Shown here piece by piece: positions 3,480 through 31,819 of a DNA stretch of 32,254 nucleotides (within the stretch, counting starts at the first letter, position 1; every line of letters starts with the position of its first letter). The notes beneath the pieces were generated by a model, which saw only the letters and a program-made list of their open reading frames with translations, searched no databases and was not told the DNA's origin. Made by a program: the position numbers and the translations under genes. Source of the DNA: a virus; IMG/VR virus record IMGVR_UViG_3300042485_001428, positions 1 to 32,254 of that record; one strand, written 5' to 3'.

Positions 3480-4538
3480 TTACAATTTGAAGTCGTCAAA
3501 TGCATTCTCACTGATAGTATTATCTACACCTTTGACATAACTACTCAATTCAGTTTCTTGAGGAGCTACTTGTAGTTTCTTACTATCATAGTAACTATCC
3601 AACCATCCAGCTAATGGATTGGATTTAGCAGCTGGATACAACTTCTTATATCCAAGACTTGTTAATCTATTATTGGCCAACCATTCAATGTAATGTTTCA
3701 AACTTTCAGCAGTCAATCCAATCAAACTACCCTTACTGAATAGATAGTCTGCCCAGTCTTTTTCTGCATTTACTGCCATTTCATAAGCAGCATAGATCTT
3801 GTCTTCATTCTTCTTAACAATATCTTGGAATCCTTCATCTGGATTATTAATCCAATTCTTCATGATATTCTGAGTAATAGCTACGTGTAGATTTTCATCA
3901 CGGCTAATAAACTTAATAATCTTACTATTACCCTCCATCTTTCCACGATATCCAAAATAGAAACTACAAGCAAATGATACATAGAAGATCAACCCTTCAG
4001 TAATCTGAGTAGCTAATACTGCGTCAAATAATTGTTGTTTAACATCATCTGATGGTGCCAATAGTTCATCATACTTCTTACTGATTGCAGTAGCTCTCTT
4101 AACAATTTCTTCATCTTCCAAGACACTATTAAAGAACTTAGTAGCATCTGGATAAACATTGTTTAGAATGTATGTATAACTGTTACTGTGAATAGTTTCA
4201 AAGAAACTCCATGAATTCATACAAATTTCTAATTCACTATTGGTAACATGTTTCATCAATTCATGAATACTGCGACTCAACATACTATCAGTCATAGTCT
4301 GAAACTTAAGATTACTATCAAATACAAATCGTTCTTCAGGTGAAAGATTCTTATAATCACTAATATCCTTTACCAAGGAAACTTCTTGAGGTCTCCAAAA
4401 GAAATTCAATTGTTGATCATATAGATCATAAAACTTAGGATACTTGATCAAATCATATCTTTGTAAAGAGAGATCTTCTCCCAAGAACATTGGATTTCTT
4501 AATTGGTCTATGTTTTTCTTATTTAATACTGTTTTCAT
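3480..4538 (-). CDS. nrdB: Ribonucleoside-diphosphate reductase class Ia, beta subunit
   Basis: The 352-residue protein aligns by eye along its length with E. coli NrdB (FFWRPQEV, SWSFFETIHS, FYVSFACSF, RDENLH, EKDWADYLF, QVAPQE). The diiron ligands are all present: D84, E114, H117, E181, E215 and H218. The radical tyrosine is Y121. With NrdA it makes deoxynucleoside diphosphates for phage DNA synthesis in the cytoplasm. The C-terminus (AFDDFKL) resembles the NrdA-docking tail of NrdB. The start is supported by TAGGAGGA, the only strong SD sequence I found in the window, 12 bases downstream of the nrdA stop. The two genes form one operon in the order nrdA-nrdB. Confidence 0.98.
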   Translation of the reverse strand: MKTVLNKKNIDQLRNPMFLGEDLSLQRYDLIKYPKFYDLYDQQLNFFWRPQEVSLVKDISDYKNLSPEERFVFDSNLKFQTMTDSMLSRSIHELMKHVTNSELEICMNSWSFFETIHSNSYTYILNNVYPDATKFFNSVLEDEEIVKRATAISKKYDELLAPSDDVKQQLFDAVLATQITEGLIFYVSFACSFYFGYRGKMEGNSKIIKFISRDENLHVAITQNIMKNWINNPDEGFQDIVKKNEDKIYAAYEMAVNAEKDWADYLFSKGSLIGLTAESLKHYIEWLANNRLTSLGYKKLYPAAKSNPLAGWLDSYYDSKKLQVAPQETELSSYVKGVDNTISENAFDDFKL

Positions 4539-21581: not shown

Positions 21582-24161
21582 TCATTGACCTCTAAATTTT
21601 GTAGCAACTCCAACTGCAGTGCTAACTTTTGTACCATCTATATTCACCGCAATGGCTCCACTCTTCATCAATCCTATTAATTCATCCAATTTATTAACAA
21701 CTTCATCGCCACCTCCACCAGCAGCACCTTTAGCAGTATTACCTAATAAAGCCAATCCCGCAACATTTAATAGATTTACATTATTAATTTCTTTATTTAA
21801 TCCTTTAATTGCTTCTGTAATGTTTTCTATTCCTTCTACTATTGCTTCATCTTTAAACATTTGTAATGTACCACCAATTGAAGATAGTGCCATTGAAGCA
21901 TTATTTAATGCTGGACTAATAGCAGCCAATGCAACCAACTGTAACATCATACCACCACCTAAAAATGATAACATACCACCACCAGCCATTGATGCACCAA
22001 ATGCAAGTACTGCACCAGACAATGTATATAATCCCATTCCAATTTTTAACAAATCAAGATTATTCATCAATGCAAATCCTTCACCAAATAATTTAGTAGA
22101 ATATCCTACGGCCAACATTGCTGCACCAAATGCTAACATTACACCAACCAATGGCCATAAAATTGGTTGTAAAGGAGCCATTACTGCGGCTAACACCCCT
22201 AAAGTTACTCCCATTACTACTGCTGCGGTTGCCATTTTACCAAGTGAACTCCAATCAACACTATTAAATTCTTGTCCAGCTTTTGCTAAAATATACATTG
22301 CACCAGCAAATGCCAACATTGCAACACCCAATGATAATAATTGTGCAGGTTTAATTCCTTTAACTGTATCCATGAATTTATTTCCACCACCTGCACCACC
22401 ACTAGTAGGACCAGCAGCAGCTGGTGCAACTCCTTTACCACCAACATTACTGGTAACATTTTGAACGGCTGAACTTGCACTGGATGCAGCGGATTTTGCA
22501 GCATCTGTTGCAGTTTTCACTACATCTTTAATTTTATTTCCCATCAACTTGTTAATGCCCATAAAAGCAAGTTTAAATGGCCATGTAATTGCATTAACCA
22601 ATACAGTTGTCCAAGTTGTAGAACCAAATGTTGCTACTGCTAATATTACTAAACCTGCCAAACCAGCACCCCATCGTCCAATATCATCACTTTTTAAAAA
22701 ACTAGAAAATCTATCCAATTGATCGGCAATTAATTTAAATAGATCAACACCAGGTGCAAAATAATCCCATATTTTTGAAACTAAATTGTAAAATTCTTTA
22801 AATGGTGCCAATACAAGTGTAACCATTATTCCACTAATTTTAAGCAAAATAGAAACAATTGGCATTAAACCATTGAGTATTGGTAATAGTATTTCTGATA
22901 GTTCTACCATTATTTGATTAATCGATGCGGTAATCTTTTCTTGTTGACTTGCTAATTGTTGTGATAATAATTCTTTCTTGTATTTGTCAGATAAACTTTC
23001 TTTTGTTTTATCCATCACTTTTTGTTTAGCTGTCAACTTTTCATATGTTTCAGGATCTTCCAAACGCAATTGATTCAATTCTTGTTGTTTTGCGTTCATC
23101 TTATCCATTTCTTCAACTGACATTCCCAATGCTTTTGCAATGCCCATTCTTTGAAAATAATCCATCTTCGATACATCACCAGCTTCTTGTAATAATCTAG
23201 ATTGTTCTTTTGCAAGATTTTCTAAATCACCTGCATATGCCAATTCTCTTGCCTTTTGAAGATTAACATCTTTACCAAACAATACACTTGCTTCCATTTC
23301 ATCATTTATTGATGTTTGAAAATCTAACATTCCTGCAGCAGCTTTACCAACTGCTTCTAATGATGTACCTAATCTTTTTGCTTCAATTGCGCCTTTTATC
23401 AATGCATCAACACTGCCTCTAATTAAAGATCTTACTTCTGCTGAAGGTTTTGCAACTTCTTTCATTACTGCACCATATGGAACACCAGCAGCTTTTGCCA
23501 TACTAGCTGCAGCTCCAGCAGTTTCTCTGGCTACTTTTGATGACATACCACCAATACCCATGAAATTTTGCATTAATGCAGTAGAATCTTCCGCACTAAC
23601 ACCCAAATTCTGTTTCATCAAAGAAACATATTCTATATTTTCTCTATTTGCAATTGCAGTATCACCAAATGCATTTGCCAATTGTTGAGCAGATTCAGAT
23701 GCAACTTCAACTGTTACGCCAAATCCAGCTAAATCTCTACTAGCAACTCTAATATTTGTTTCTATTTGTTTTGTTTGAGATGCTAAAAATCCCGTATTTT
23801 GTCTAAAACTCATTGCAGCATTATCCAATTCTGCAAATCTTTGAGCGGATAATTTAATCAATTCAAATCCAGCCGTTAATGGATTTTTTAATTGATTCAT
23901 TGTTGAAAACAAACTAGCAGCTCTTTCATTTAATGGAGTAAAAACATTAATTATACCTCTCAATGCATCACCTTGTTCTTCCAACAATCCTAAATTTTTC
24001 TGAAGTGATTTGGCTAAATCCTTAGTATGTTCTAGTTCTCTTTCTCTTTCACGATTGATTGCTTGAAGCCCTGCCAATTCATCTTCTTGAGCACTATTCA
24101 AATTTTCTTGTGCTTCAAGTTCAGCTTGTCTTTGTTTTCTTTGATAATCGGACGATGCCAT
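21582..24161 (-). CDS. Tail tape measure protein
   Basis: The 859-residue protein has an N-terminal Glu/Gln-rich coiled coil (~1-65), a long helical region (to ~405), then hydrophobic segments (about 420-455, 500-535, 605-628, 645-690, 710-750) separated by an Ala/Ser/Gly-rich linker (~548-595). This layout is typical of tape measure proteins, which set tail length by stretching through the tube and whose hydrophobic parts help DNA cross the host membrane. The position right after a tail-assembly-chaperone pair supports the call. T4 gp29 itself is shorter. The gene opposite it on the plus strand is an artefact of Ala/Pro-rich antisense codons. An ATATTTATA box in an 8-bp palindrome precedes the ATG. 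Confidence 0.85.
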   Translation of the reverse strand: MASSDYQRKQRQAELEAQENLNSAQEDELAGLQAINRERERELEHTKDLAKSLQKNLGLLEEQGDALRGIINVFTPLNERAASLFSTMNQLKNPLTAGFELIKLSAQRFAELDNAAMSFRQNTGFLASQTKQIETNIRVASRDLAGFGVTVEVASESAQQLANAFGDTAIANRENIEYVSLMKQNLGVSAEDSTALMQNFMGIGGMSSKVARETAGAAASMAKAAGVPYGAVMKEVAKPSAEVRSLIRGSVDALIKGAIEAKRLGTSLEAVGKAAAGMLDFQTSINDEMEASVLFGKDVNLQKARELAYAGDLENLAKEQSRLLQEAGDVSKMDYFQRMGIAKALGMSVEEMDKMNAKQQELNQLRLEDPETYEKLTAKQKVMDKTKESLSDKYKKELLSQQLASQQEKITASINQIMVELSEILLPILNGLMPIVSILLKISGIMVTLVLAPFKEFYNLVSKIWDYFAPGVDLFKLIADQLDRFSSFLKSDDIGRWGAGLAGLVILAVATFGSTTWTTVLVNAITWPFKLAFMGINKLMGNKIKDVVKTATDAAKSAASSASSAVQNVTSNVGGKGVAPAAAGPTSGGAGGGNKFMDTVKGIKPAQLLSLGVAMLAFAGAMYILAKAGQEFNSVDWSSLGKMATAAVVMGVTLGVLAAVMAPLQPILWPLVGVMLAFGAAMLAVGYSTKLFGEGFALMNNLDLLKIGMGLYTLSGAVLAFGASMAGGGMLSFLGGGMMLQLVALAAISPALNNASMALSSIGGTLQMFKDEAIVEGIENITEAIKGLNKEINNVNLLNVAGLALLGNTAKGAAGGGGDEVVNKLDELIGLMKSGAIAVNIDGTKVSTAVGVATKFRGQ

Positions 24162-24196: not shown

Positions 24197-24406
24197 TCAT
24201 TTTCCTTTACTAATATTTGGTCTAGCAATAGGTTTATTTGAAGATTTATTTGATTTTTCCATTGCTTCTTTTTCTTTTTCTTTGGTGTCTATCAATTTTT
24301 TCAAATAAAAAATGCGTAAATACACAGGTAAATTATAAGCAATGTCCTGTGTAAACGCACCTTGTGAATGATATGCCAGACTAAATATCTGTTCGTGAAT
24401 CAACAA
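24197..24406 (-). CDS. gp51/E'-like tail assembly segment, likely frameshift extension
   Basis: The frame encodes IHEQIFSLAYHSQGAFTQDI, then PVYLRIFYLKKLID and a Lys/Glu-rich tail, a small family that I associate with the position after gp26 in T4-like phages. It has no ATG before residue ~49. The only near starts are two TTG codons at 24401-24406, and the open frame continues upstream, in the other frame of the gp26-like gene, to a TAA at 24443-24445. Seven T lie at 24428-24434 in the overlap. A +1 or -2 slip there would fuse this segment (via GLTPEDK) to the gp26-like protein, like the G/GT and E/E' chaperones. Re-initiation at TTG, with GGAAG upstream, is the alternative. The tape measure gene follows after 35 bases. 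Confidence 0.7.
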   Translation of the reverse strand: MLIHEQIFSLAYHSQGAFTQDIAYNLPVYLRIFYLKKLIDTKEKEKEAMEKSNKSSNKPIARPNISKGK

Positions 24407-24407
24407 C

Positions 24408-25244
24408 TTATCTTCCGGTGTCAGGCCAAAAAAACTGTACCGTTAGCGGTACACCTATCCTTTCTTCATGATTACATTGTTCACATCTAAAGTCAAAATT
24501 CAAATCAATATCAGGAGTTCTTTCTTTAATCAACTTTCTTAATTCAAAACTGTCTCTGGATGTCAATTCTGTTTCAATAAATTTCTTGATTTCTGCCTTA
24601 TCTGCATTTCCATTAACTGCAATAATTGTGTATCTTAATCTAGTAGTTACCTCGGATGTATTACCAGTTTTAATCTTTTGTAACATCTTTAACTCATTTT
24701 CAATTTGTTTTTCATCTCCTGATGTTAACAACTTACATGTTACTGTCTTTTTACAATAAGGAAGTTGAATATCAAATCGATTTACATTTGGTTGATATTT
24801 TGAAAATTCAATTTCTTTATAGTTCAATTCACCTAAATTAAATGTACATTCATTATTTTCTCTACATGATGGACATTTGATTTGAAGTGGACCATAATTA
24901 TCGCCATAAGCAAATCGTCTTGTTGCAACAAAAATAGCATTTTTATCACCCAATAACAAATCATCCAATTTTACATCTTTATCTACTATAAGCGATTCAA
25001 TTAATTTATCAAGAACTACACCCTTTTTAATATAATTTTGGTTGGTAAGAATATCTTCTTCTTTTGCAGTCATTACCTTCAAATTAATAGTACCACTACT
25101 CAATGGACTGGAAGAATCATAAAAATGTCCATTGCTTGGCAATTCAACCACTTCAGATGGATATGTAGATTCTTGTTTTGGTTGTGACACATTTCCAGCA
25201 AATTGATTAGCTGGTTTTGTAATAGGAATTGTATAGTCGTCCAT
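24408..25244 (-). CDS. gp26-like tail/baseplate hub assembly chaperone
   Basis: The 278-residue protein matches the T4 gp26-type family (Pfam T4_baseplate as I know it): VVELPSNGHFY (~32-42), a GTINLKVMTAKEEDILTNQN stretch (~51-70) and KKGVVLDKLIESLI (73-86), with the ending VPLTVQFFWPD. Two Cys pairs, C124-x2-C127 and C254-x2-C257, could bind one zinc ion. By gene order (tube, this gene, small overlapping frame, tape measure) it holds the place of P2 gpE and lambda gpG, chaperones that coat the tape measure. In T4, gp26 is described as a hub protein. The stop lies 2 bases before the first TTG of the next frame. A 13-bp inverted repeat ends at its start codon. Confidence 0.85.
   Translation of the reverse strand: MDDYTIPITKPANQFAGNVSQPKQESTYPSEVVELPSNGHFYDSSSPLSSGTINLKVMTAKEEDILTNQNYIKKGVVLDKLIESLIVDKDVKLDDLLLGDKNAIFVATRRFAYGDNYGPLQIKCPSCRENNECTFNLGELNYKEIEFSKYQPNVNRFDIQLPYCKKTVTCKLLTSGDEKQIENELKMLQKIKTGNTSEVTTRLRYTIIAVNGNADKAEIKKFIETELTSRDSFELRKLIKERTPDIDLNFDFRCEQCNHEERIGVPLTVQFFWPDTGR
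24428..24453 (-). promoter_or_regulatory. Hairpin plus T7 run: candidate recoding site or internal terminator
   Basis: TGTACCG and CGGTACA (24436-24442, 24447-24453) form a perfect 7-bp stem with a 4-base loop. One base later come seven T (24428-24434) on the minus strand, then GG. The element lies in the last ten codons of the gp26-like gene. It has the form of an intrinsic terminator and also of a slippery run. Confidence 0.6.
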
Positions 25245-25300: not shown

Positions 25301-26149
25301 TTAATTAGAAGATTGTAATTGTTCTTTAGCAGATTTAACTAAATTTTGTTTTGATTTCAATTCATCACTTAATTTTTTTAATTCTTCGGCAGATTTTGAT
25401 TTATCCTCTGGAGAAGTTGATGTTTTACTTTTTTCTTGTGCGATTTTGATTTTATCATCTACTGCTCTTTTTTCCAACTCTCTTTGTAGAACCAATGCTT
25501 GATTTGTTTTTTTGGTAGCTGCTTTTATTTTTGCATCATCCTCCATCAATATTTCATTAATTAACTTAATCAAAGATTCTTTTATCTTTTTTTTGGATGT
25601 TGCCATTCCTTGTTTTACCGCATCAAATAATTCCTTTGCCAATTGTGGATTATTAGGAACGGTACCTTTGAATGATTCAAAATCATTATTTTTAACAAAT
25701 TCTCTAGCCATACTGGCACTCACACCTTCTACTCCTTCAACACCATCTTCTCTTTCACCACTACTGACAATATTTAAAGTACCAAATCTTGGTGTTTTAT
25801 CCATCCCATTCCAAGTATTCAATAACTTTGTAAATTCTGGTACTCTATCACTACCACAAACAAATGTAGCATCAGTATAACCATTTGCCTTTAATTTATC
25901 TGCGGCTTGTAACACATTTTTGATTGTCATATCATACACAATCTTATCTTGTATACTAGGAAATAGTTTCTTTAAAAAGTTTACTTTAGTTTGATAATCC
26001 AGTGGGTTTTTATCTGGGTCTTGTGATTGACTTGTAAATATATAAAAATCACCACCATCTGCAGCATCTACTACAGTATCAATCAACTTCTTGTGTCCAA
26101 TTGTAGGAGGATTAAATCTACCAAATGCAAATGCTACATGTTTCTTCAT
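25301..26149 (-). CDS. Cytidylyltransferase-like nucleotidyltransferase with coiled-coil tail
   Basis: From the ATG at 26149 (a TTG lies two codons upstream) the protein has 282 residues. GRFNPPTIGHKKL (10-22) is the HxGH-type nucleotide-binding motif in T-x-G-H form, and SGEREDGVEGVEGVSASMAR (130-149) matches the second motif (usually S-x-T-x-x-R) of NMN/pantetheine-phosphate adenylyltransferases. FVCGSDRVPEF supports the fold. Similar T4-like phage proteins are named nicotinamide-nucleotide adenylyltransferases, but the substrate is uncertain. A connector (IKESLIKLINEILME, ~189-203) holds three I/L-x-E sites, then a charged coiled coil (205-282). That tail suggests a virion-packaged or cleaved protein. 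It sits between the tail tube terminator and the gp26-like gene. Confidence 0.8.
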   Translation of the reverse strand: MKKHVAFAFGRFNPPTIGHKKLIDTVVDAADGGDFYIFTSQSQDPDKNPLDYQTKVNFLKKLFPSIQDKIVYDMTIKNVLQAADKLKANGYTDATFVCGSDRVPEFTKLLNTWNGMDKTPRFGTLNIVSSGEREDGVEGVEGVSASMAREFVKNNDFESFKGTVPNNPQLAKELFDAVKQGMATSKKKIKESLIKLINEILMEDDAKIKAATKKTNQALVLQRELEKRAVDDKIKIAQEKSKTSTSPEDKSKSAEELKKLSDELKSKQNLVKSAKEQLQSSN

Positions 26150-26171
26150 ATACAATAAATATTCTAATATA

Positions 26172-26228: not shown

Positions 26229-26720
26229 TCAGTATTGTAAAATACAATAATCTACGCTCAAAGTTAAGTTAATTGTCATAGCTTCACCACTGTCTGACCA
26301 ATCTAATTCACCGAAATCTGCACTAGTAATAAATGCACCTTTGAGTGTCCATTCTTCTACTTTATCACCCACAGGTCCAAGAACATTGACGGTTAAATCT
26401 TTCTTATAAAAATCACTATAACCATCACGACCAGTAACAGATTCGTGTCCTAGACGAATCCATTCCATTACTGCTTGCGCACCAGAGGGTACAATTGGAT
26501 CATATAGTTCAATTGATATATCATCCCAAGTAGTTTTACCTTTATAATATCTTTGAATATTGATATGGTCAAGGGTTTTCTTTTCACTTTTTGGTGATGG
26601 TCTCTTGCACTTCTTAATCAAGAAACTTGGGATACCGTCACAATATAATATAAATCTATTCTTTACTTTTGGTTCAAATGTAGTAAAGAATATTTCGTTG
26701 CTATTTAGTAGATCTGCCAT
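26229..26720 (-). CDS. Tail tube protein, T4 gp19-like
   Basis: The 163-residue protein has the length and pattern of T4 gp19: FEPKVKNRFILYCDGIPSFL (15-34), then YYKGKTTWDDISIELYDP, a GAFITSADFGELDWSDSGE segment and the C-terminal strand MTINLTLSVDYCILQY. It polymerises into the inner tube of the contractile tail, through which DNA passes. A plausible SD-like AAGGA lies 10 bases before the ATG, and an ATATTTATA box lies 27 bases before it, the most promoter-like spacing of that box in this window. A terminator follows the gene, fitting strong, separate expression. The sheath gene expected next to it is not in the window on this side; the HEG-like gene adjoins. Confidence 0.93.
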   Translation of the reverse strand: MADLLNSNEIFFTTFEPKVKNRFILYCDGIPSFLIKKCKRPSPKSEKKTLDHINIQRYYKGKTTWDDISIELYDPIVPSGAQAVMEWIRLGHESVTGRDGYSDFYKKDLTVNVLGPVGDKVEEWTLKGAFITSADFGELDWSDSGEAMTINLTLSVDYCILQY

Positions 26721-26831: not shown

Positions 26832-28337
26832 ATGTCACGATCTAAAAATTCAAAAAATTGGTTGACTATACATTGCAAATTTTGTAATGGTGTGTTTGAA
26901 TGTAGGGTAAGTAAACCAAAAGTCTTTTGCAGTAAGAAGTGTAGTAACAGTGATAGTTCTACAAAACAAAAGATAATTGACGGACAAAAAAAGACTTTTG
27001 ACAAAAAATATGGTGGACATCCAATGACAACGGATGTGGTAAAATCTAACTTTAAATCTGCAATCCTTGAAAAATATGGAGTGGATAGTTATAGCAAACT
27101 CCCAGAATATAGAAATAAAGTTAAAAAAACAATGTTAGAAAAGTATGGGGATGAGAATTATTCTAATGTAGAACAAACTAAATCTACTATGATGGATAGA
27201 TACGGAGTAGATAATGCAGCTAAGATCAAATCCGTGATTGATAAACGATCACATACTAAGAAATCAAACCACTATGAGTTCCTAATTAATTACTGTAATA
27301 GTAACAAGTTACAATTTCTGTGTGATGAAGTGGATTATAAAGGTTACCACTTTAGTAATATTTATAAATTTAAATGTGATGTATGTGATAAAACACTCGA
27401 AAGTACAGTTTATAATTTAAACAATCTATTCTGCGATTATTGTCACCCAGAGAAAATCACTACAGTTGAAAATCAATTTTATAATTTTCTACAAGAAATT
27501 TTACCGAAAGATACAGTCATTAAACGAAATGATAGAACCATATTAAATGGAAAAGAACTGGATTTTTATATACCAAATCTAAACCTTGCGTTTGAAATTA
27601 ATGGATTATACTGGCACAGTGAAAATGGTGGAGGTATCAATAAAAATTATCACCTAAACAAAACAAAGTCTTGTAGTTTTTATGGCATTTCATTGATTCA
27701 TATATTTGAAAATGAATGGATTAACAAAACGGAGATTGTTAAATCAATAATCAAAATATTAACAAAAACAAATAATCTTGTTAAAATTAATGCAAGAGAA
27801 TGTAAAATCAAAGAAGTAAATGAATGTGATAAAAATAAATTTCTAAATGATAATCATTTGCAAGGCGAAGACAAATCCACAATCAAATTGGGAATGTATC
27901 TAAAAGATGATTTAGTAAGCATTATGACTTTTAGAAAAACTTCACGGTTTGATAAAACAAGTGAATGGGAATTGGTAAGATTTTGCAATAAAATTAATAC
28001 TATAGTTAATGGCGGCGCAAGTAAATTATTAAAACATTTTATAAAACATTATAATCCAAAAAATATTGTCAGTTATAGTGATAGAAGATATTTTACCGGC
28101 AAAATTTATGAAACTTTAGGATTCAAATTCGTAAGTCATACACCTCCTAATTATCATTATCTAATTAATAATTATAAAGATATTAGACACCGCATGAGTT
28201 TCCAAAAACATAAATTAGAAAAATTATTAAAAATATACAACCATTCGCTTAGCGAATGGGAAAATATGAAAAATAATGGTTATGATAGAATCTGGGATTG
28301 TGGTCACGGAAAATATTTTTTAACTATTTCACTATAA
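26832..28337 (+). CDS. Homing-endonuclease-like protein with Mom-like GNAT C-terminus
   Basis: This is the only plus-strand gene, 501 residues. A zinc-type cluster (C15-x2-C18, C33-x3-C37) is followed by four copies of a ~22-residue unit with KYG or RYG (59, 81, 104, 123), then a second Cys cluster (C182-x2-C185, C201-x2-C204). A nuclease core follows: KELDFYIPNLNLAFEINGLY with D244 and E255, then WHSE (261-264), like VSR/PD-(D/E)xK enzymes. Residues ~337-440 run NHLQG, KLGMYLKDDLVSIMTF, WELVRFCN and SYSDRRYFTGKIYETLGF, parallel to the Mom-like protein of this window. Orientation, lone position and architecture suggest a mobile homing-type nuclease. It is inserted beside the tail tube gene; no intron is seen. 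Confidence 0.8.
   Translation: MSRSKNSKNWLTIHCKFCNGVFECRVSKPKVFCSKKCSNSDSSTKQKIIDGQKKTFDKKYGGHPMTTDVVKSNFKSAILEKYGVDSYSKLPEYRNKVKKTMLEKYGDENYSNVEQTKSTMMDRYGVDNAAKIKSVIDKRSHTKKSNHYEFLINYCNSNKLQFLCDEVDYKGYHFSNIYKFKCDVCDKTLESTVYNLNNLFCDYCHPEKITTVENQFYNFLQEILPKDTVIKRNDRTILNGKELDFYIPNLNLAFEINGLYWHSENGGGINKNYHLNKTKSCSFYGISLIHIFENEWINKTEIVKSIIKILTKTNNLVKINARECKIKEVNECDKNKFLNDNHLQGEDKSTIKLGMYLKDDLVSIMTFRKTSRFDKTSEWELVRFCNKINTIVNGGASKLLKHFIKHYNPKNIVSYSDRRYFTGKIYETLGFKFVSHTPPNYHYLINNYKDIRHRMSFQKHKLEKLLKIYNHSLSEWENMKNNGYDRIWDCGHGKYFLTISL
28241..28259. repeat. Perfect 9-bp palindrome in the endonuclease gene
   Basis: CCATTCGCT, one T and AGCGAATGG form a near-continuous inverted repeat in the C-terminal codons (NHSLSEW). 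It is one of three GCG-rich palindromes within 360 bases. Confidence 0.6.
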
Positions 28338-29705: not shown

Positions 29706-30419
29706 CTATAATCCGTACCTTTTTCTTGTAGCATTATAATTTTGAAGTATTTCATTTGCATTTAATAATCTGCTGTAAATTTGTATATTAGATACAGAGC
29801 CGGACCAATAAGCACCGGTGGGTCTTCTACCTATTTGAATAGTATCTGTAGTTGTCGCATATACTGATCCGCCTAATGTACCTGTACCATTACTTAAAAC
29901 ACCATCTATATATATTGATGTTGTATTACTTCCAAGAGTTGTTGTATTAGTTGTATATACTGATACTATATTTCTCCAAGTATTATTATTGACTGTTGCT
30001 GTACTTGATCTGTTATAAGTATTAATACCAGTAGAACCTTTTGTAGTACCAGAAACTGTTCCTGAGGAGTCAAATTGAAACAGCCAACCAGCAGTAGAAG
30101 CAGTTGCACCTTTAGAAATAATAACACCACCTGTAGAAGAAGTAGTTTTTATCCATAAACTCACAGTAAATGTGACATTTGCAAATTGAAAAGTTGTTCC
30201 GGTATTAACTGTATCTACATAATCATTTGTACCATCAAAAACTATACTACCACCATTTGCACTATTGAAAGTTGGTCCATTGGTTAATGTACCGGTATTA
30301 TTATTTTGACTTAAATCATACCAAGTAGTTCCTGTTCTTGGATAACTTTTATTATTAGCCGCATCCAAATATAATACTAATCCATTTGATATAATTTTTG
30401 GTCCTCTGGATAATGACAT
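29706..30419 (-). CDS. LamG-like lectin-fold protein, copy 3
   Basis: The 237-residue protein has the LamG/concanavalin A-like pattern: GLVLYLDAANNKSYPRTGTT, NNTGTLTNGPTF, GGSIVFDGTNDYVDT, then IYIDGVLSNGTG and a C-terminal NANEILQNYNATRKRYGL. It is the third and most distal of three tandem paralogues, whose N- and C-terminal thirds are nearly alike and whose middles differ. Such domains bind carbohydrate or protein on cell surfaces and are common in phage tail fibres and decoration proteins. No signal peptide. It starts 9 bases after the copy 2 stop. The role in host adhesion is inferred. Confidence 0.8.
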   Translation of the reverse strand: MSLSRGPKIISNGLVLYLDAANNKSYPRTGTTWYDLSQNNNTGTLTNGPTFNSANGGSIVFDGTNDYVDTVNTGTTFQFANVTFTVSLWIKTTSSTGGVIISKGATASTAGWLFQFDSSGTVSGTTKGSTGINTYNRSSTATVNNNTWRNIVSVYTTNTTTLGSNTTSIYIDGVLSNGTGTLGGSVYATTTDTIQIGRRPTGAYWSGSVSNIQIYSRLLNANEILQNYNATRKRYGL

Positions 30420-30428
30420 ATCTTATAA

Positions 30429-31115
30429 TTATCTGCCAAATCTACTTTTAGTAGCATTATAGTTTTGAAGAACTTCTGATGCAGTTAATACTCTATTATA
30501 AATTAAAAATTGAGGTATGTTACCATTTATATACGCAAGACTATCTCTTATATCTGCACCAATTACAAAATCGTTTGTACTTATACTTGCATTAAATCCT
30601 GCTGTACCGGTACCAGAAGAATATCCATCAATATAAAATGTACCATTTGTAGAATTTTTTGTAAATCCTAAATATTGATAAATATTTGGTGATAATGTAC
30701 CTGCCGATTGAATATAATTAAAAGCTATAGAACCATTATAATCCCAATATTGTAATCTAGAATTGGATTGTTGTAATTGAGCTTCAGAATCCGCATCTGA
30801 AGGACTTCTTCCTAAACTAAATAATATACTATATGCACTAACAGAAACGAATTTTGCCCATAACAATATGGTATATGTCGATGAATTAAAATTATTTAGC
30901 GATGAACGATAAATATAATCATTTGTGCCATCAAACACAATACTGCCCATATTTGCTGCGTTAAATGTGGGTCCATTGGTTAATGTGCCATTATTGCCAT
31001 TTCCGCTTAAATCTGTCCAAGTTGTACCTGACCCAGGATAACTTTTATTATTTGCTGCGTCTAAATGTAATATCAATCCATTTTCATTTATATCTGGTCC
31101 AATTTTTCCTGACAT
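30429..31115 (-). CDS. LamG-like lectin-fold protein, copy 2
   Basis: The 228-residue paralogue opens GPDINENGLILHLDAANNKS and has NGTLTNGPTFNAANMGSIVF and DGTNDYI. The middle (residues ~75-160, with NFNSSTYTILLWAKF) differs from copies 1 and 3. It ends NRVLTASEVLQNYNATKSRFGR. The end is almost identical to that of copy 1. The spacing to both neighbours is about 10 bases, so all three are cotranscribed. The different binding-loop region suggests ligand diversification after duplication. Confidence 0.8.
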   Translation of the reverse strand: MSGKIGPDINENGLILHLDAANNKSYPGSGTTWTDLSGNGNNGTLTNGPTFNAANMGSIVFDGTNDYIYRSSLNNFNSSTYTILLWAKFVSVSAYSILFSLGRSPSDADSEAQLQQSNSRLQYWDYNGSIAFNYIQSAGTLSPNIYQYLGFTKNSTNGTFYIDGYSSGTGTAGFNASISTNDFVIGADIRDSLAYINGNIPQFLIYNRVLTASEVLQNYNATKSRFGR

Positions 31116-31126
31116 ATATTTTATAA

Positions 31127-31819
31127 TTATCTACCAAATCTACTTTTTGTAGCATTATAGTTTTGTAATATTTCAGCTGTACTTAATGCTCTGTTGTATA
31201 TGAGGGTCGTTGATATATTTCCGATAAATGGATAAACACCACCACCAAAAGGAGACCGTCCAATCCAAACAGCATATGATAATGTTGTTATACTTGTGGT
31301 ATCAGAACCGCTATTATTTAAGATACCATTAATATATAAATTTTGCGTTCCACCTGGTCCGGTTCTTACTGCACATATATGATACCACTGATTATTATTA
31401 ATTGCATATGTACTACTAACTCCACTATATCCGCCTCCACTAACATCAAATGTTACAAGACCAGAACTTTGAACTATATATAATCTATAATTCCAAGTGG
31501 AAGCTCCTGTAACAGATTCATCCGCTATAATTGCTCTATAAGTACTAACATTAGTAGATGCCTTCACCCAAGCAGATAAAGTTAGAGAACCTAAATTAAG
31601 ACTACTATTACTTCCACAATTGACATAATCATCCGCCCCATCAAATACAATAGATCCTCCGTTTGTACTACTAAAAGTAGGACCATTCGTTAATGTACCG
31701 TTATTACTATTTTGACTTAAATCTGACCAAGTTGTACCTGACCCAGGATAACTATTTCTATTAGCAGCATCTAAATACAATACCAAACCATTTGTTATTA
31801 TTTTTGGTCCGTAAAACAT
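31127..31819 (-). CDS. LamG-like lectin-fold protein, copy 1
   Basis: The 230-residue paralogue opens MFYGPKIITNGLVLYLDAAN, then NNGTLTNGPTFSSTNGGSIV and FDGADDYVNCG. Its middle (SLTLSAWVKASTNVSTYRA, then YNNNQWYHICAVRTG-like strands) is closest in style to eukaryote-like LamG jelly rolls. It ends NRALSTAEILQNYNATKSRFGR. It is the first of the three to be transcribed and lies 3 bases after the small tail-end gene. Surface adhesion is inferred from the family and from the neighbouring probable fibre gene. Confidence 0.8.
   Translation of the reverse strand: MFYGPKIITNGLVLYLDAANRNSYPGSGTTWSDLSQNSNNGTLTNGPTFSSTNGGSIVFDGADDYVNCGSNSSLNLGSLTLSAWVKASTNVSTYRAIIADESVTGASTWNYRLYIVQSSGLVTFDVSGGGYSGVSSTYAINNNQWYHICAVRTGPGGTQNLYINGILNNSGSDTTSITTLSYAVWIGRSPFGGGVYPFIGNISTTLIYNRALSTAEILQNYNATKSRFGR

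Follow-up and report, generated by a model that had tools for sequence, protein, structure and literature searches.

A probable programmed +1 ribosomal frameshift linking a gp26-like tail assembly chaperone to a gp51-like segment in T4-related phages

Short and long tail assembly chaperones, of which the long form arises by programmed frameshifting, are encoded between the tail tube and tape measure genes of several phages, with a -1 shift in lambda (gpG/gpGT) and P2 (E/E+E') and a -2 shift in Mu, and a review of recoding describes tail frameshifts, be they -1, -2 or +1 in different phages, as widely conserved except in T4 (PMC5009743). As far as the work is related in two later papers (PMC12846349, PMC10885494), Vladimirov, Gautam and Davidson (2022, Virology 566:9-15) assigned the chaperone genes of T4-like phages to gp26 (TAC-N) and gp51 (TAC-NC) with a mechanism that does without frameshifting, and PMC12846349 cites the same study also for poly-T -1 signals in T4-like phages. 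Here we analyse a viral fragment of 32,254 bases (IMG/VR record IMGVR_UViG_3300042485_001428), the whole of which is called the window in the following, where a gp26-like gene (open reading frame 1, ORF1) is overlapped by a second frame (ORF2) encoding a gp51/E'-like segment. An earlier reading made without database searches (the sequence-only reading) had proposed that the two are joined by +1 or -2 recoding or, alternatively, that ORF2 is re-initiated at a TTG codon. Comparative evidence strongly supports a recoded fusion of the two parts, and a programmed +1 ribosomal frameshift, by which two tail assembly chaperones would be made from one start codon, is very probably the explanation for the locus as a whole.

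ORF1 matches PF12322 (E 2.3e-15; 57.3 bits, above the curated cut-off of 24.5) and PHROG 150 'baseplate hub' (E 1.9e-16). Structure prediction was carried out on the ORF1 and ORF2 parts separately: the AlphaFold model of ORF1 (pLDDT 90, pTM 0.84) retrieved phage models termed 'baseplate hub assembly protein, bacteriophage T4-like' in Foldseek (E 7e-16) and nothing significant among solved structures (PDB), where the HK97 chaperone 2ob9 appeared only at E 7.7, and ORF2 was predicted as three helices (pLDDT 84) with no significant Foldseek match among viral models. The ORF1 gene ends in CAG TTT TTT TGG CCT GAC ACC GGA AGA TAA and thus contains the seven T followed by GG (minus strand, 24434..24428) that the sequence-only reading had pointed out. 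That reading was also correct in that the ORF2 frame, which spans 24442..24197 on the minus strand and overlaps ORF1 by 32 nt, is open into the gp26-like gene and has no ATG upstream of its conserved part, and in that a -1 slip would soon meet a stop, since the -1 frame reads TTG GCC TGA; a canonical -1 heptamer arrangement (X XXY YYZ) is accordingly not present in the window. From the T-run onwards the ORF2 frame reads F F G L T P E D K, and the predicted fusion product comprises 348 aa.

Relatives were gathered by searches from six seeds in IMG/VR and from annotated phages and amount to 338 loci with the gene, or 230 distinct junctions. The alignment that had been suggested as a check showed that the slip site and the +1 position of the gp51-like segment are kept in 225 of the 230, with no start codon conserved in ORF2 across these 225 loci. 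An overlapping second frame that lacks its own start, combined with a conserved slip site, is one of the marks of a frameshifted chaperone of the G/GT type. The commonest forms of the site are TTTTTTTGGCCT (n=145), TTTTTTTACCCT (n=36), TTTTTTTGGCCA (n=16), TTTCTTTGGCCT (n=11) and TTCTTTTGGCCT (n=10), the rest being rarer. All 225 sites contain UUU-Y (Y being U or C) in frame at codon 1 or 2, which would allow tRNA-Phe to re-pair after moving forward by one base. Among the Phe-Phe sites of the non-redundant set, 92/92 use TTT for the second Phe, whereas the Phe codon use of the individual genes would predict 69.8 (P = 2.5e-12). The A-site codon is TGG, TAC, TTC or ATC, the ORF1 stop follows 9-18 nt past the second slip codon, and inspection of the aligned sites by eye revealed no common Shine-Dalgarno sequence that could serve as an internal, general stimulator.

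Conservation of the +1 frame, which is poor upstream, starts at the slip site, with G in 186/225 and L in 207/225 loci and later Y, [KR], H, I, F and G. Differences between close pairs fall on codon positions 1, 2 and 3 of the +1 frame in a proportion of 1101/737/3376, and those between the window and its nearest relative in a proportion of 8/7/21; this excess at the third position indicates that ORF2 is selected as a protein. Site and +1 frame also occur in the isolate genomes of Flavobacterium phage immuto and Microcystis phage Mel-JY01. At the end of its PF12322 gene, Rhodothermus phage RM378 (L364 in our set of loci) has TTT TTT TGG AAT as a +1-type site, along with a +1 frame that is open for 76 codons from stop to stop; in the tree this phage forms a long basal branch of the +1 clade.

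RNA structure was assessed in 36-nt windows along the gene, each of which was folded and set against synonymous-codon shuffles, and the excess of structure beyond codon constraint (dE) peaks solely at the slip site. The window ending at the site on its 5' side gave a dE of -2.83 kcal/mol (z -1.26, with 34% of loci in the lowest ~5%) and the 3' window a dE of -2.2 (z -1.1 to -1.25, 31-34% of loci in the lowest ~5%), as against values between -0.4 and +0.1 at 60 to 180 nt upstream. For the 5' window, the non-redundant +1 set reached -2.97 with 46% in the lowest 5%, compared with +0.46 and 4% in 52 cyanophage-type loci. The 5' hairpin of the sequence under study has a predicted stability of -9.3 kcal/mol, exceeded by at most 2 of 40 synonymous-codon shuffles, and ends 1 nt ahead of the first slip codon; the stem ends 0-6 nt before that codon in 38/43 significant cases. 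The register of the 5' stem differs between lineages, and compensatory synonymous changes (ACG..ACC vs ACC..ACG) are found in the small TVPxTV group. A 5' stem held at one position in all relatives was rejected, as the obvious register was 76.5% paired vs 75.2% in synonymous shuffles among the 109 loci with [IV]Px[GT][VI] upstream.

Other sublineages carry a stem on the 3' side. In the FFGLG-fusion clade, which like the FFGQ clade was picked by amino acids and not by pairing, pairing in a 7-bp 3' stem reaches 89% (shuffles: 55%, max 64%) and double-substitution cells number 23 (shuffles: 9.2, max 20), and in the FFGQ clade the 3' stem is 87% paired vs 39% (max 50%). Covarying hairpins 3' of the +1 slip site were seen in L020, L053 and their relatives. 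A strict either/or of 5' and 3' hairpins was likewise discarded, since their correlation in the non-redundant set is negative (Spearman -0.23, P 0.02) but they are not mutually exclusive (Fisher P 0.31).

The sequence of events that we propose is as follows. Most ribosomes would read the gp26-like frame through TTT TTT TGG CCT to the stop six codons after the slip codons and release the 278-residue short form. In a minority, tRNA-Phe sitting on a P-site UUU with U (or C) as the next base would slip forward by one base, from UUU to UUU, whereupon reading in the window would resume at GGC (24427..24425) and yield a long form of 348 residues that has a helical domain at its C-terminus and QFFGL (TVQFFGLTPEDK) as junction peptide. 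A hairpin re-forming just behind the P site on the 5' side, or just ahead of it in other sublineages, would raise the shift rate; we infer the shift, its rate and this stimulatory role from the conservation and folding patterns described above. By analogy with lambda gpG/gpGT (PMC5009743) and in view of the gene position, the short form would coat the tape measure protein, which the long form would bridge to tail tube subunits.

A stimulator of this kind has precedents. On 70S ribosomes, a hairpin placed directly upstream of the shift site is reported to promote +1 shifting and to dampen -1 shifting, mimicking the Shine-Dalgarno duplex of prfB, whereas a downstream pseudoknot opposed +1 shifting there (Huang, Cho and Chang 2018, PMC6321510). 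The occurrence of the 5' hairpin with +1 sites and its lack at the -1 sites tested fit these results; the 3' hairpins of other sublineages fit them less well and may act by pausing the ribosome. The hairpins in that study belonged to a constructed reporter, whereas the elements described here, although likewise abutting the site, look natural and conserved and are putative stimulators. Escherichia coli prfB is similar in that its +1 slip is stimulated by a duplex immediately behind the P site, and 11 relatives have CUU-U at the site; the proposed event here differs in that it would involve UGG or UAC, which are sense codons, and a hairpin in the mRNA.

Among the alternatives, a -2 shift comes closest in its product, as it would give the same fusion with one extra Phe (junction QFFFGL, TVQFFFGLTPEDK). 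Such a shift is used in Mu (PMC5009743), and at the window and other T7 sites tRNA-Phe could indeed re-pair two bases back, but the site forms TTTCTTTGG, TTCTTTTGG, TTCTTTTAC, TTTCTATGG and TTTCTATTC, which together account for 24/225 loci, do not allow -2 re-pairing and yet retain UUU-to-UUY re-pairing in the +1 direction. Because a -2 slip needs a U-rich sequence two bases back, which TTTCTTTGG, TTCTTTTGG, TTTCTATGG and TTTCTATTC do not offer, we consider it very improbable and keep only the +1 half of the original "+1 or -2" proposal. The T-run could also act one step earlier, by slippage of RNA polymerase that leads to mRNAs of different frame; the loss of one U from seven consecutive T would produce the same fusion. 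With the run broken to three or four T in 24 relatives whose arrangement is otherwise intact, and with conserved RNA hairpins beside the site that suggest a ribosomal event, transcriptional slippage is just as improbable. That a homopolymer error of sequencing or assembly splits what is really one gene has to be asked of any metagenomic contig such as this one, homopolymers being error-prone; given the agreement among 225 distinct junctions and several isolate genomes, and the recurrence of the same layout at sites without a long homopolymer, we regard an error as next to impossible.

Separate translation of ORF2 deserves slightly more weight, though it too is improbable. Termination-reinitiation is common in phages, and a TTG (24406) starts one base past the TAA stop of ORF1, from which, or from another non-ATG start past that stop, ORF2 might be initiated. 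The conserved part of ORF2, however, begins ahead of this TTG, which is not kept in relatives, so that the re-initiation part of the sequence-only reading was not borne out, and start-type codons are scarce among the first 12 codons of the +1 frame (13 TTG, 17 ATG and 1 GTG in 225 loci). Relatives that lack the slip site instead use a clear ATG. Relatives with an ATG-started second frame had been named in advance as a possible refutation; they do exist but are rare (5/230), and since all five are without the slip site they support the frameshift. Two of them, L098 (TTC TTG TAT) and L102 (TTC CTT TGG), with the sites TTCTTGTAT and TTCCTTTGG, have lost UUU-Y and carry ORF2 in another frame with an ATG a few bases past the ORF1 stop. 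In the tree they are sisters inside the +1 clade, beside Flavobacterium phage immuto, and this nesting looks like a loss of the slip site that was replaced by separate initiation. The remaining three (L084, L107, L109) belong to a basal giant-phage group whose segment is likewise in a different frame and begins close to an ATG.

Several observations count against the +1 frameshift or weaken its support. The fusion protein is predicted here from comparative evidence, and since related sequences are not independent, all counts are inflated. Two sites (TTTCTAT) require the slip to occur one codon earlier, and the A-site codons UGG and UAC are not obviously slow. About a quarter of the non-redundant loci (24/98) have neither hairpin at a significant level, and the 5' pairing is largely built into the IPxGV amino-acid motif, for which reason only the excess over synonymous shuffles counts.

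In T4, gp26 (208 aa) and gp51 (249 aa) both belong to PF12322 (E 9e-64 and 4e-52), as does ORF1, and fall together with their relatives into one clade of the tree (100/96). The C-terminal extension of gp51 corresponds to ORF2 by way of cyanophage intermediates: it matches the -1-frame tail of cyanophage-type phages (hhalign E 2.3e-10), and the cyanophage gp51-type tail matches ORF2 (E 2.7e-10), whereas ORF2 set directly against T4 gives a weak match (E 0.012). The equation of gp51 with an E'-like segment thus applies to its C-terminal piece, while gp51 as a whole is a full PF12322 protein like gp26. Where the Phe-Phe slip codons sit here, T4 gp26 ends in KEFFELL. T4 obtains its short and long forms from two genes, which lie on opposite strands, without frameshifting, whereas one gene, an overlapping frame and a +1 shift would serve here; in the window, which is a fragment, one match to an ORF1-type protein and no T4-style pair of separate genes were found. 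The sequence-only reading had presented this as an extension of the short/long logic to T4-type phages; the link holds, but for T4 it was already published (Vladimirov et al. 2022, as related in the papers named above).

Cyanophages and other T4-type phages share the layout, in that a single PF12322 gene is overlapped at its end, at the same Phe-Phe, by a homologous tail frame. This Phe-Phe is encoded as T_TTT_TTY in P-SSM2, Syn9, HTVC008M, Cr30, phiM12, KVP40 and phiW-14 and as TTTTTTC in 71/72 cyanophage-type IMG/VR loci. These phages differ in that the heptamer is a canonical -1 site, the stop follows 0-6 nt later, an in-frame ATG is often nearby and, in the cyanophage-type loci, the 5' hairpin is absent. 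Because an ATG is often found close to the beginning of the tail, these loci may allow re-initiation as well as -1 shifting. A near-invariant T_TTT_TTY with a -1-frame gp51-like tail was observed in L353, L354, L356, L357, L359, L360, L361 and L375-L454.

The features of the locus are listed in Table 1. The gene order had been given as tube, chaperone, overlapping frame and tape measure, which we can confirm except that a nucleotidyltransferase-like gene between tube and chaperone had been missed. ORF1 is thus flanked by tube and tape measure genes, with the nucleotidyltransferase gene also intervening, and its position just before the tape measure gene is as expected for a tail assembly chaperone; the likeness to lambda, P2 and Mu is drawn from this layout. 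Beside the tail tube gene, a homing endonuclease-like gene lies on the opposite (plus) strand (26832-28337; PHROG 3339, E 2e-115). Further along, three tandem paralogous genes of 237, 228 and 230 aa (29706-31819, minus strand; 40-46% identity), which match virion structural protein PHROGs, are likely surface or fibre-type modules.

Table 1. Coordinates of the chaperone locus and its neighbouring genes in the window.
Feature	Position	Strand	Remarks
ORF1, gp26-like tail assembly chaperone, putative short form (0-frame product), 278 aa	24408..25244	minus	PF12322, PHROG 150
ORF1 stop TAA	24410..24408	minus	
Proposed shift site T7, frame 0 = TTT TTT T(GG)	24428..24434	minus	then GG
5' hairpin TGTACCG-CTAA-CGGTACA, 7 bp, proposed +1 stimulator	24436..24453	minus	
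ORF2, +1-frame C-terminal segment (gp51/E'-like), 76 codons past site	24197..24433	minus	stop 24199..24197
Tape measure protein gene, downstream of ORF1/ORF2	21582..24161	minus	PHROG 167, E 5.6e-5
Tail tube protein gene, upstream of ORF1	26229..26720	minus	PHROG 4542, E 7.8e-27
Nucleotidyltransferase-like gene, between tail tube gene and ORF1	25301..26155	minus	PHROG 3041, E 2e-52

Only a few +1 programmed frameshifts have been studied well in bacteria and phages, and these often depend on a stop codon or a rare one. Frameshifted tail chaperones as such are known, and the short/long identity of T4 gp26 and gp51 is already published; what appears to be new is the +1 clade together with its 5' hairpin, of which we found no report in the literature searched (most subscription papers lay outside its scope). 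The locus also bears on genome annotation, as the segment in isolate genomes is to be read as the C-terminal part of the long form of the chaperone and not as a short or separate hypothetical protein. In Mel-JY01 (L081, 3749-3985) the +1-frame segment looks mis-annotated as a separate hypothetical protein, and in immuto (L082, 3738-3961) it looks mis-annotated as well, with only a short coding sequence (3851-3961) overlapping it.

Overall, T4-related phages seem to make one protein pair in at least three ways, namely from two genes, with a -1-type site or with a +1-type site, and rarely with a separate ATG. A broader proposition, to which we give an even chance, is that there is a widespread natural class of +1 sites in which tRNA-Phe is driven forward on UUU-Y by an mRNA hairpin that re-forms immediately behind the P site, with neither a stop nor a starved codon in the A site, and that one homologous phage gene has moved in evolution among -1 shifting, +1 shifting, separate initiation and duplication, the 5' hairpin being gained or lost with the +1 direction. 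With hundreds of natural variants of one site, stimulators specific to sublineages and losses that were replaced by an ATG, the choice between a forward and a backward slip becomes testable by simple reporters.
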